NCBI GenBank assembly: GCA_029557535.1
Contig: JAKQII010000088.1
Location: 1 to 53,326, forward strand
Source of the DNA: Acidobacteriota bacterium
GTDB lineage: Bacteria > Acidobacteriota > Blastocatellia > Pyrinomonadales > Pyrinomonadaceae
Direction: 5' to 3'
Length of the DNA stretch: 53,326 nt
The notes beneath the pieces were generated by a model. It searched no databases. It saw nothing but the letters and a program-made list of their open reading frames with translations, and was not told where the DNA came from. Each line of letters starts with the position of its first letter. Position 1 is the first letter of the stretch. The translations under genes and the position numbers were made by a program. Below are positions 39,105-42,984 of the stretch, piece after piece.

Positions 39105-39683
39105 ATGGACGATATTTCCGCAAAGAAATGGCTCGTCGTCGGTCTCGGAAATCCCGGCGCGCGGTACGAGAAAACGAGGCACAATCTCGGGTTCATGGTG
39201 ATCGACCGGCTCGCGGAACGCCTTCAGACGACGGTCAGGCGGGATGAATGCCGGGCACTGATCGGCCGCGGCCACGCAGGCGGCGAGATCGTTGAACTGG
39301 CGAAACCGCAGACGTTCATGAACCTCAGCGGCGAATCGGTCAGTTGCCTTCTTCGCAAGGACGACCGGTCGGTCGTGAAGCTGATCGTGATCTCGGACGA
39401 CCTCGCGCTGCCGTTCGGAACGGTCCGGATCAGGCCGAAGGGAAGCCACGGCGGGCAGAATGGATTGCGATCGATCATCGATTGTTTGAAAACGCAGGAA
39501 TTCTGCCGGCTGCGCATCGGGATCGCGCCCGACCGACCGGTGAGTGACGCGAGCAATTTCGTGCTCGAGAATTTTTCAAAGAGCGATCTAAAGGAGGTCG
39601 ACTCGATATTGGACCTGAGCGCCGATGCCGCGCTTTCGATCGTCGAAGACGGAGTCGAAAAGGCAATGGCCAAATACAATTGA
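39105..39683 (+). CDS. pth: peptidyl-tRNA hydrolase
   Basis: WLVVGLGNPGARYEKTRHNLGFMVIDRLA; PQTFMNLSGESV; KGSHGGQNGLRSI. Confidence 0.97.
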   Translation: MDDISAKKWLVVGLGNPGARYEKTRHNLGFMVIDRLAERLQTTVRRDECRALIGRGHAGGEIVELAKPQTFMNLSGESVSCLLRKDDRSVVKLIVISDDLALPFGTVRIRPKGSHGGQNGLRSIIDCLKTQEFCRLRIGIAPDRPVSDASNFVLENFSKSDLKEVDSILDLSADAALSIVEDGVEKAMAKYN

Positions 39684-39783
39684 AATTCGGATAGATCGCA
39701 AATCCGAATTCGCAAATCCCAAACGGATATGCCCTTCTTGCTTCGACGCCGCGCGCCGAAGCTGGAAAGCCACAAGGAGGAAA

Positions 39784-40167
39784 ATGGCAAACAGAACATA
39801 CGAAGTAATGTATATCGCGACGCCGGAAACGAACGATGAGACGATCGGAAAGCTGAATGAAGCGATCGTCGGTCTCGTCGAGAAGGAAGGCGGCAGCGTG
39901 GTCAAGACGGAAGATTGGGGCCGTCGCAAACTTGCTTATCCGATCAAAAAGAAGACGGAAGGCCACTATATGTTGTTCGAGATCGAAGGGTCCGGACAGG
40001 AGATCGCCGAGCTCGAACGCCGGATGCGCGTCAACGACCTGATCATGCGGTACATCACGGTGCGTGTCGACGAGGAACGCAAAGCGGCCGAAAAGAAGCA
40101 GGCGAAGCGCGACCGCCGCCGCAATCGCGGTGCGGACGAAGGATCCGGCGATGCCGAGTCTAACTAA
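39784..40167 (+). CDS. rpsF: 30S ribosomal protein S6
   Basis: MANRTYEVMYIATPETNDETIGKLNEAI...DWGRRKLAYPIKKKTEGHYMLFEIEG; SD aaggagg. Confidence 0.97.
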   Translation: MANRTYEVMYIATPETNDETIGKLNEAIVGLVEKEGGSVVKTEDWGRRKLAYPIKKKTEGHYMLFEIEGSGQEIAELERRMRVNDLIMRYITVRVDEERKAAEKKQAKRDRRRNRGADEGSGDAESN

Positions 40168-40188
40168 CCATCGAGGAGGAGTTTGAAA

Positions 40189-40482
40189 ATGGAAAAGCAA
40201 AAAGACAACAACAGCACAACCGAAAGCACCGAACTCGATGCCACCAACATGGAGCAGGATCTCGAGAAGATGCCGCGCCGCTTTCAGCGTCGCCGCCCGC
40301 GACAGTCCGTACCCGATTACGTCGATTGGAAGGACGTCGATTTTCTGAGACGTTTTGTTCCCGAGCGCGGGAAGATCATGCCGCGCCGCATCTCGGGCAT
40401 CACGGCCAAGGACCAGCGCCGCGTCTCGCGCGCGATCAAACGGGCGCGTTCGATGGCGCTCATTCCGTTCGTTGCGGACTAA
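40189..40482 (+). CDS. rpsR: 30S ribosomal protein S18
   Basis: [51 protein letters not shown]. Confidence 0.97.
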
Positions 40483-40500
40483 GCAAGGAGGATTCAAATC

Positions 40501-41061
40501 ATGGCAAATACGACAGTTTTGTTACGCGAGGACATCGAAACGCTCGGCGGACGCGGCGAGATCGTCAAGGTCAGGGCCGGGTATGCCCGAAACTTCCTGC
40601 TGCCGCAGGGATTGGCGTCGCTCGCGACAAAGGGAAACATCAAGCAGATCGAACTCGAGCGTGCCGCGCTCTTGAAAAAGGCCGCCCAGGAGAGAGCGAC
40701 CGCCGAACTGCAGGCTGATCAAATGTCCGGACTCTCGCTCGAATTCATCCGCAAGGCCGGCGAAACCGGGACGCTGTTCGGGTCGGTGACGTCGATGGAC
40801 ATTGCGGATGCTCTCGCCGCAAAGGGTTACGAGATCGACCGCCGGCGGGTGAACCTGCGTGACGCGATCAAGGAAACCGGCGATTATACGGTCGGTGTCA
40901 AGCTTCATCGCGAGGTCGTTCTCAATGTTCCGGTGATCGTCCGGGGCGAAGGTGAGCCTGAAGAGGTCGCGGTTGCGGCGCCCGCTGCACCCGCTGCCGA
41001 GGCGTCAACCGGGGCCGTTGAAGAGGTTGTTGAAGAGGCGTCGGACGAAACCGAAGACTAG
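40501..41061 (+). CDS. rplI: 50S ribosomal protein L9
   Basis: VLLREDIETLGGRGEIVKVRAGYARNFLLPQGLASLAT. Confidence 0.97.
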   Translation: MANTTVLLREDIETLGGRGEIVKVRAGYARNFLLPQGLASLATKGNIKQIELERAALLKKAAQERATAELQADQMSGLSLEFIRKAGETGTLFGSVTSMDIADALAAKGYEIDRRRVNLRDAIKETGDYTVGVKLHREVVLNVPVIVRGEGEPEEVAVAAPAAPAAEASTGAVEEVVEEASDETED

Positions 41062-41181: not shown

Positions 41182-42984
41182 ATGAATCCGACCACCGACT
41201 TCGCCCGCGATCAGTATCTGGAGAAGCCGCTGCCGAGCAGTCCCGACAGCGAGCGCGTGATCCTTGGCGCCATCCTCCTCGACAATCAACTCATCAGCCA
41301 AGCGATCGAACATCTCCGACCTGAGGATTTCTACTCACCGCTTCATCGCCGGATCTTCAAAGCGATGATCGCGCTGTTCGAGCGCAGCGAGCGGATCGAT
41401 CCGATCCTGATCGGCGAGGAACTCAAAAAGGACGGCTCGATCGAATCGATCGGCGGGATCGCGACGATCACCAATCTGACCTACGGGTTGCCGCATTTTT
41501 CGGACATCTTCGACTACGCGAAGGTGGTCAAGGACAAATCGATCATCCGCTCGTTGATCAAGGTCTGCAACCAGATCACGAGCGAGGCGCTCGCCGAAGA
41601 AGAGGAAGCGTCGGACATTCTCGATCACGCCGAACAGCAGATCTTCGCGCTTGCGGATGAACGTACCCGGCAGGGATTTGCGCATATCCGGCCGATCGCC
41701 GAGTCGGTGCTCGCGCGGGTCGAGGAATACGCGAAACGTGAAACGCACGCGTTGACCGGCCTCGCGACCGGTTTCCGCGATCTCGACGAAAAGACATCGG
41801 GACTGCAGAAGACCGACCTGATCATCATTGCGGCCAGGCCGTCAATGGGCAAGACGGCCATGTGCCTGACGATGGCGCAGAATGCCGCCGTGCAGGAAGC
41901 CGCTACCGTCGCGCTTTTTTCGCTTGAAATGTCGAAGGAGCAGCTTGTCATGCGCATGCTCTCGAGCGAGGCGAAGGTCGATGCGCACCGATTCCGGACC
42001 GGATATCTGACGCGCGACGAATGGGCGCGGCTGGCCGAGGCGATCGGGACGCTGTCCGAGGCCAAGGTCTTCATCGACGATACGCCGGGCATTTCGGTGC
42101 TCGAGATGCGCGCGAAACTGCGGCGGCTGGCAGCTGAGCAGAAACGTCTTGATCTGGTCGTCGTGGATTATCTTCAGCTGATGTCGGGGTCGAAACGGAC
42201 CGAATCGCGGCAGCAGGAGGTTTCGCAGATCTCGCGGGAACTCAAAGCGCTGGCGAAAGAGATGCAGGTTCCGGTCGTCGCTCTCTCGCAGCTGTCACGC
42301 GCTCCGGAGGCCAGAAATCCGCCGAAACCGATGATGTCCGATCTTCGGGAGTCGGGGTGCCTTGCCGGAGATTCGCTAGTAACGTTGGCGGAAACCGGCA
42401 GTCGAGTGCCGATTCGCGACCTGGAGAATCAAAAAGACTTCGACGTTTGGGCATTGAATGCGAAATCATGGAAGCTCGAACGTTCGAAGGTCACTAATGC
42501 ATTCAGAACCGGCGAGAAACCGGTATTCCGACTCACAACGCGGCTCGGGCGTGAGATTCGCGCCACAGCGAATCACAAATTCCTCCGATTCGATGGATGG
42601 GAAAGGCTCGACAAACTCAAATCGGGCGATCGAATTGCACTGCCCGGGGCACAGGAGTTCGGAGGTTCTCAAGATGGCGTTTATTGGGACGAGATTGTGT
42701 CGATAAGTCCGGATGGAGTCTCGGATGTTTACGACCTAACGGTCGAGGAACATCACAATTTTGTCGCCCAGGATTTCATCGTTCATAATTCGATCGAGCA
42801 AGACGCAGACGTCGTGGCGTTCATCTACCGCGAGGATTACTACAAACCGACCGAGGAGAACGCCGGGATCGCCGATATCCTGATCGCAAAGCAGCGCAAC
42901 GGGCCGACCGGAACCGTGCGGCTGGCGTTTTTAAAGGAATTTACGAGGTTCGAGAACTACTATGGCGAGTACAACAGCGACTGA
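41182..42984 (+). CDS. dnaB: replicative DNA helicase DnaB (contains intein)
   Basis: IIIAARPSMGKTAMCLTMAQNAA; LVVVDYLQLMSG; exteins MMSDLRESG and SIEQDADVVAFIYREDYY interrupted in frame. Confidence 0.97.
   Translation: MNPTTDFARDQYLEKPLPSSPDSERVILGAILLDNQLISQAIEHLRPEDFYSPLHRRIFKAMIALFERSERIDPILIGEELKKDGSIESIGGIATITNLTYGLPHFSDIFDYAKVVKDKSIIRSLIKVCNQITSEALAEEEEASDILDHAEQQIFALADERTRQGFAHIRPIAESVLARVEEYAKRETHALTGLATGFRDLDEKTSGLQKTDLIIIAARPSMGKTAMCLTMAQNAAVQEAATVALFSLEMSKEQLVMRMLSSEAKVDAHRFRTGYLTRDEWARLAEAIGTLSEAKVFIDDTPGISVLEMRAKLRRLAAEQKRLDLVVVDYLQLMSGSKRTESRQQEVSQISRELKALAKEMQVPVVALSQLSRAPEARNPPKPMMSDLRESGCLAGDSLVTLAETGSRVPIRDLENQKDFDVWALNAKSWKLERSKVTNAFRTGEKPVFRLTTRLGREIRATANHKFLRFDGWERLDKLKSGDRIALPGAQEFGGSQDGVYWDEIVSISPDGVSDVYDLTVEEHHNFVAQDFIVHNSIEQDADVVAFIYREDYYKPTEENAGIADILIAKQRNGPTGTVRLAFLKEFTRFENYYGEYNSD
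42358..42789 (+). other. DnaB mini-intein (144 aa, no homing endonuclease)
   Basis: CLAGDSLVTLAETGSRVPIRDL (block A), GREIRATANHKFL (block B), SDVYDLTVEEHHNFVAQDFIVHN (blocks F/G), +1 Ser. Confidence 0.96.

Follow-up and report, generated by a model that had tools for sequence, protein, structure and literature searches.

A putative natural class 1 mini-intein at the motif-H4 site of a chromosomal acidobacterial DnaB helicase

Inteins come in three standard configurations, of which the natural mini-intein is one (PMC7765530), and the life history of inteins has been described as a homing cycle of spread, fixation, endonuclease loss and element loss (PMC1654191). The DnaB intein sites at motif H4 and at the P-loop are designated “a” and “b”, respectively (PMC6195587). 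The Ssp mini-intein is, as PMC3620165 relates of Wu et al. 1998, a laboratory product made from a cyanobacterial dnaB intein. DnaBi1 of Mycobacterium smegmatis (6bs8) is a natural mini-intein in a replicative DnaB; it occupies the P-loop site, follows class 3 chemistry with an internal Cys118, and possesses a redox toggle (PMC6195587). The shortest plastid DnaB intein, that of the red alga Dichotomaria marginata, comprises 123 aa (PMC5784728). A natural DnaB intein of 141 aa, which lacks an endonuclease, is found in the Planktothrix phage PaV-LD (HQ683709; L123:2001-2423), the record of which annotates the protein only as “replicative DNA helicase”.

The locus described here lies in a window of 53,326 nucleotides, the whole stretch analysed, from a contig of a draft genome of the Pyrinomonadaceae (Acidobacteriota). 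In this window dnaB is a single open reading frame of 600 codons, from the ATG at 41182 to the stop at 42984 on the forward strand, and the insert occupies the in-frame codons 393-536. The features are as follows.

39625..41061, forward strand: rpsF (inside the open reading frame 39625-40167) and rplI (40501-41061), upstream of dnaB (Pfam Ribosomal_S6, Ribosomal_L9)
41182..42357, forward strand: N-extein of the replicative DNA helicase DnaB, 392 aa, ending ...MMSDLRESG (open reading frame; Pfam PF00772, DnaB N-terminal, and DnaB_C; NCBIfam TIGR00665 above its cut-off)
42358..42789, forward strand: predicted class 1 mini-intein, 144 aa (C1 ... H143 N144), no endonuclease domain (full PF14890 profile; TIGR01445/TIGR01443; AlphaFold Hint fold)
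42358..42645, forward strand: N-terminal splicing half, residues 1-96 (C1; block B T70-A-N-H73; ending IALP) (gap-free alignment with ten same-site relatives)
42646..42672, forward strand: 9-aa linker GAQEFGGSQ at the endonuclease position (alignment; the relatives carry an endonuclease segment of ~292-297 aa there)
42673..42789, forward strand: C-terminal splicing half, residues 106-144 (DGVYWDE...VYDLTV...HHNF...VHN) (alignment with relatives)
42790..42984, forward strand: C-extein of DnaB, 64 aa plus stop, its +1 Ser opening SIEQDADVV (open reading frame)

The gene is preceded by rpsF and rplI and followed by a gene of the DinB superfamily (Pfam assignments); rpsF-rplI-dnaB with ordinary ribosomal-protein neighbours is the usual chromosomal setting of dnaB. 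A search at E<=1e-20 of the source genome, which is 98% complete, returned this dnaB only. Removal of the 432 nt leaves a DnaB of 456 aa, which shares 397 identical positions with the 457-aa, intein-free DnaB of G030, a genome of the same genus; in the stretch compared, from DLRESG onward, the two do not differ across the junction. Since the insert interrupts an essential, single-copy helicase at a conserved motif, it would have to be spliced out; given the sole dnaB found and its rpsF/rplI setting, loss of splicing should therefore be lethal.

Translation of 42358-42789 gives an uninterrupted product of 144 aa, CLAGDS...FIVHN, with the junctions MMSDLRESG^CLAG and FIVHN^SIEQDAD; the insertion falls at DLRESG^S(I/T)EQDAD, which defines the motif-H4-site allele of DnaB. 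Residues 8-144 match the Pfam profile Intein_splicing (PF14890) over profile positions 1-155 with E 1.6e-32, and NCBIfam intein_Nterm and intein_Cterm (TIGR01445, TIGR01443) both score above their cut-offs. A chance resemblance is excluded. In the Pfam scan the insert gave no match at E<=1 to an endonuclease family, LAGLIDADG or HNH, in keeping with the definition of a mini-intein as one that has no homing-endonuclease domain. The splicing residues are C1, block B T70-A-N-H73, D126, H143 and N144, followed by the +1 Ser. C1, T70, N72, H73, D126, H143 and N144 do not vary among the source intein and the ten same-site relatives aligned with it, nor do Y109, W110 and D111 of the C-terminal half. 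By its profiles, residues and predicted fold, the insert is a class 1 intein of the Hint superfamily with predicted splicing activity. Assignment to class 3 was rejected: Cys1 is present and is the sole cysteine of the intein, whereas class 3 inteins lack the N-terminal nucleophile and carry a catalytic cysteine in block F. These results bear out the preliminary description, which had proposed from the letters of the DNA a natural, in-frame DnaB mini-intein of 144 aa at these coordinates with Cys1, TxxH, penultimate His, terminal Asn and +1 Ser; in the search with intein profiles that it had suggested, the match spans the entire splicing-domain profile.

The AlphaFold model of the intein, obtained with the alignment of relatives as input, has a mean pLDDT of 93.2 and a pTM of 0.85, and a Hint fold is predicted with confidence. 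Confidence is low only at residues ~101-104, which lie within the linker, as for a flexible loop. The best Foldseek matches in the PDB are 6frg, 4o1r, 6frh and 1mi8, all Ssp or Npu DnaB mini-inteins, with 52-57% identity and a TM-score of about 0.9. The sequence search agrees that the Ssp and Npu DnaB inteins are nearest among solved structures, so that the Ssp-type kinship proposed at the outset holds for both sequence and fold.

The Npu mini-intein (4o1r), which we take to be an engineered endonuclease deletion of the full-length Npu intein, resembles the source intein in host protein, fold, TxxH motif and terminal HN, with 57-59% identity. Its chain comprises 142 aa, of which about 139 are intein; the source intein is about 5 aa longer, natural, and has a different 9-aa linker of its own. 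The Ssp intein and its mini-intein/M86 variant (1mi8, 6frg, 6frh) likewise share the host protein and class 1 chemistry, with 52-58% identity and a TM-score of about 0.9, but the Ssp mini-intein has a longer linker at the deletion point and about 154 aa in total, so that the source intein is about 10 aa shorter. The PaV-LD intein shares the identical site, DLRESG^S, and 59.7% identity; it differs in residing in a viral DnaB and in grouping with the Npu and Ssp inteins, and since it groups there its loss of the endonuclease was probably independent. It is the informative viral relative and came from an annotated phage collection. Relatives from the IMG/VR viral reservoir, in contrast, match mostly the C-terminal motif, and the one near-complete match (L103) lies in another protein; this reservoir was set aside. 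DnaBi1 is alike in being a natural mini-intein of a replicative DnaB and differs in site, chemistry and redox toggle.

The source intein is not the first example of its kind, and smaller ones exist: the same site holds the 141-aa intein of PaV-LD and a 172-aa mini-intein in an Obscuribacterales MAG, a 147-aa form (G182) lies two residues upstream, and DnaBi1 and the 123-aa plastid form are already described. The suggestion that it is as small as, or smaller than, engineered mini-inteins stands relative to the Ssp construct and fails relative to the crystallised Npu form; a claim to special compactness is not sustained, given PaV-LD, Npu at about 139 aa and the algal DnaB inteins, the shortest of which has 123 aa. 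That a very short linker replaces the endonuclease is correct, although it extends over nine residues only, the following DG belonging to the C-terminal half.

The evidence for the loss of the endonuclease comes from relatives at the same site. Nine relatives in the source family and class carry full-length inteins of 427-432 aa at the identical DLRESG^SIEQDAD site, five in the family (G041, G033, G066, G026, G025) and four in the class (G127, G429, G338, G437). Both of the two that were scanned with Pfam (G041, G127) contain LAGLIDADG_3, with E of about 1e-21 to 1e-23. The junction is shared by the source DnaB, the nine complete full-length relatives (one with DLRDSG), the Obscuribacterales MAG and PaV-LD. 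The N-terminal half (96 aa) and the C-terminal half (39 aa) align with the full-length relatives without gaps, and the ~292-297 residues in between are replaced by GAQEFGGSQ, placed between ALP96 and D106-G-V-Y-W-D. The splicing domain is 58-64% identical to that of all of them, including the five family members, G127 and G429, which share the site and differ from the source intein by the endonuclease segment and overall length. Loss of the homing endonuclease is well supported by these relatives and by the gutted and empty alleles described next, in line with the earlier proposal of a relic of lost homing, and we infer that the endonuclease was lost rather than never present.

A further allele at the same DnaB site occurs in G510 of the same class (L126:1414-1971), whose intein of 186 aa has an internal deletion in the endonuclease; both ends of this segment, the start and the C-terminal one, are retained, no LAGLIDADG match is obtained, and the allele represents an intermediate of endonuclease decay. 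Most other family members checked, including G029 and G030 of the same genus, have an empty site, which provides the intein-free allele that the preliminary description had proposed to look for. A third genome of the genus, G031 (L057, ~3210 to end), has one intein at the P-loop site and, at the motif-H4 site, the beginning of another; of the latter, ~22 residues precede the end of the contig, and its position 1 is Ser rather than Cys. On the DnaB extein tree of the sampled genomes, occupancy of the site changes at least 10 times. Such patchy alleles are what the homing cycle would lead one to expect.

Other inteins were seen in passing. A second DnaB site, two residues upstream (DLRE^SGAIEQ or SGALEQ), is occupied in L052 (G023), L053 (G001) and L097:1778-2218 (G182) by full-length, frame-broken and mini forms, the 147-aa mini form being that of G182, of the same phylum. 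The P-loop-site DnaB intein of G179 (L137:1501-2391) is, with 297 aa, shorter than usual, and its endonuclease is possibly partly eroded. Outside the window the source genome is rich in inteins (L002/L102 C158, L006 C91, L008 C31, L100 C164, L101 C52, L005 with L007 C390/C180): those checked with Pfam lie in SMC (P-loop), GyrB (with an HNH-like stretch), GyrA and a UDP-glucose/GDP-mannose dehydrogenase, and inspection by eye added SufB and a ribonucleotide reductase. Unlike the DnaB intein, every one of these appears to keep an endonuclease segment.

The insert in the chromosomal DnaB, at its motif-H4 site, is very probably a functional cis-splicing mini-intein of class 1, descended from a full-length, LAGLIDADG-bearing intein by loss of the whole endonuclease. 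It is predicted to splice, almost certainly, and would, we infer, do so efficiently. In the pathway established for class 1 inteins, Cys1 would attack the Gly-1 peptide bond in an N-S shift aided by T70 and H73, the N-extein would be taken over by the +1 Ser, N144 would cyclise with the assistance of H143, and an O-N shift would join the exteins to the 456-aa DnaB.

The base composition of the intein bears on where the loss took place. As the proposed comparison of intein and exteins brought out, GC3 is 0.54 in the intein and 0.76 in the exteins (for the drop of the splicing domain, Fisher p 5e-6), while no 144-codon segment of the DnaB N-extein or of ten other genes in the window falls below 0.63. 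This would suit a mini-intein that arrived already free of its endonuclease by horizontal transfer, for example from a phage or cyanobacterial dnaB, the loss having happened elsewhere, as would the similar mini-intein of PaV-LD and the empty site in G029 and G030. We regard such an arrival as unlikely. A tree in which the source intein is made to group with PaV-LD, Npu and Ssp is worse by 9.2 log units (AU p 0.04), and one that unites it with PaV-LD and the Obscuribacterales mini-intein by 38 log units (p 1e-4), whereas a grouping with G041, G033 and G066, which belong to its family, is not rejected (p 0.25); the 135-aa splicing-domain tree singles out no full-length intein as the immediate parent. 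The low GC3 is moreover unspecific, since in most full-length relatives, too, the intein is lower than the extein, though more weakly. It fits a mobile element and gives no date, and base composition was dropped as proof of a recent foreign origin. That the endonuclease segment was merely dropped in assembly is scarcely credible: the genome is a 404-contig draft, but the join is in frame and precisely at the endonuclease position, the linker has a sequence of its own that matches neither flank of the relatives, and the 53-kb contig is unbroken there.

The conditional splicing of DnaBi1 (PMC6195587), together with the general hypothesis that fixed, endonuclease-free inteins may be maintained by something other than homing, raises the alternative of a decayed or slow intein, whose poor or condition-dependent splicing would make the supply of DnaB conditional. 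We consider this quite improbable, as the catalytic residues and the predicted fold are all intact and no feature pointing to regulation was seen. A disulfide switch of the DnaBi1 type was rejected, the single cysteine making an internal Cys-Cys toggle impossible. It is very improbable, though conceivable, that the intein was retained after homing because conditional splicing controls the supply of DnaB, as a domesticated switch without the cysteine toggle of DnaBi1, in a class that shows a graded decay series at one site, from full length through the 186-aa remnant and the clean 144-aa mini-intein to the empty site.

The functional mini-intein favoured here leaves what is known about inteins unchanged. 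It adds a natural, compact class 1 splicing domain with a single cysteine, a candidate splicing tool, and together with its relatives it provides a comparative homing-cycle series at one site: within a single class of bacteria there are empty alleles, full-length ones, gutted ones and ones free of the endonuclease.
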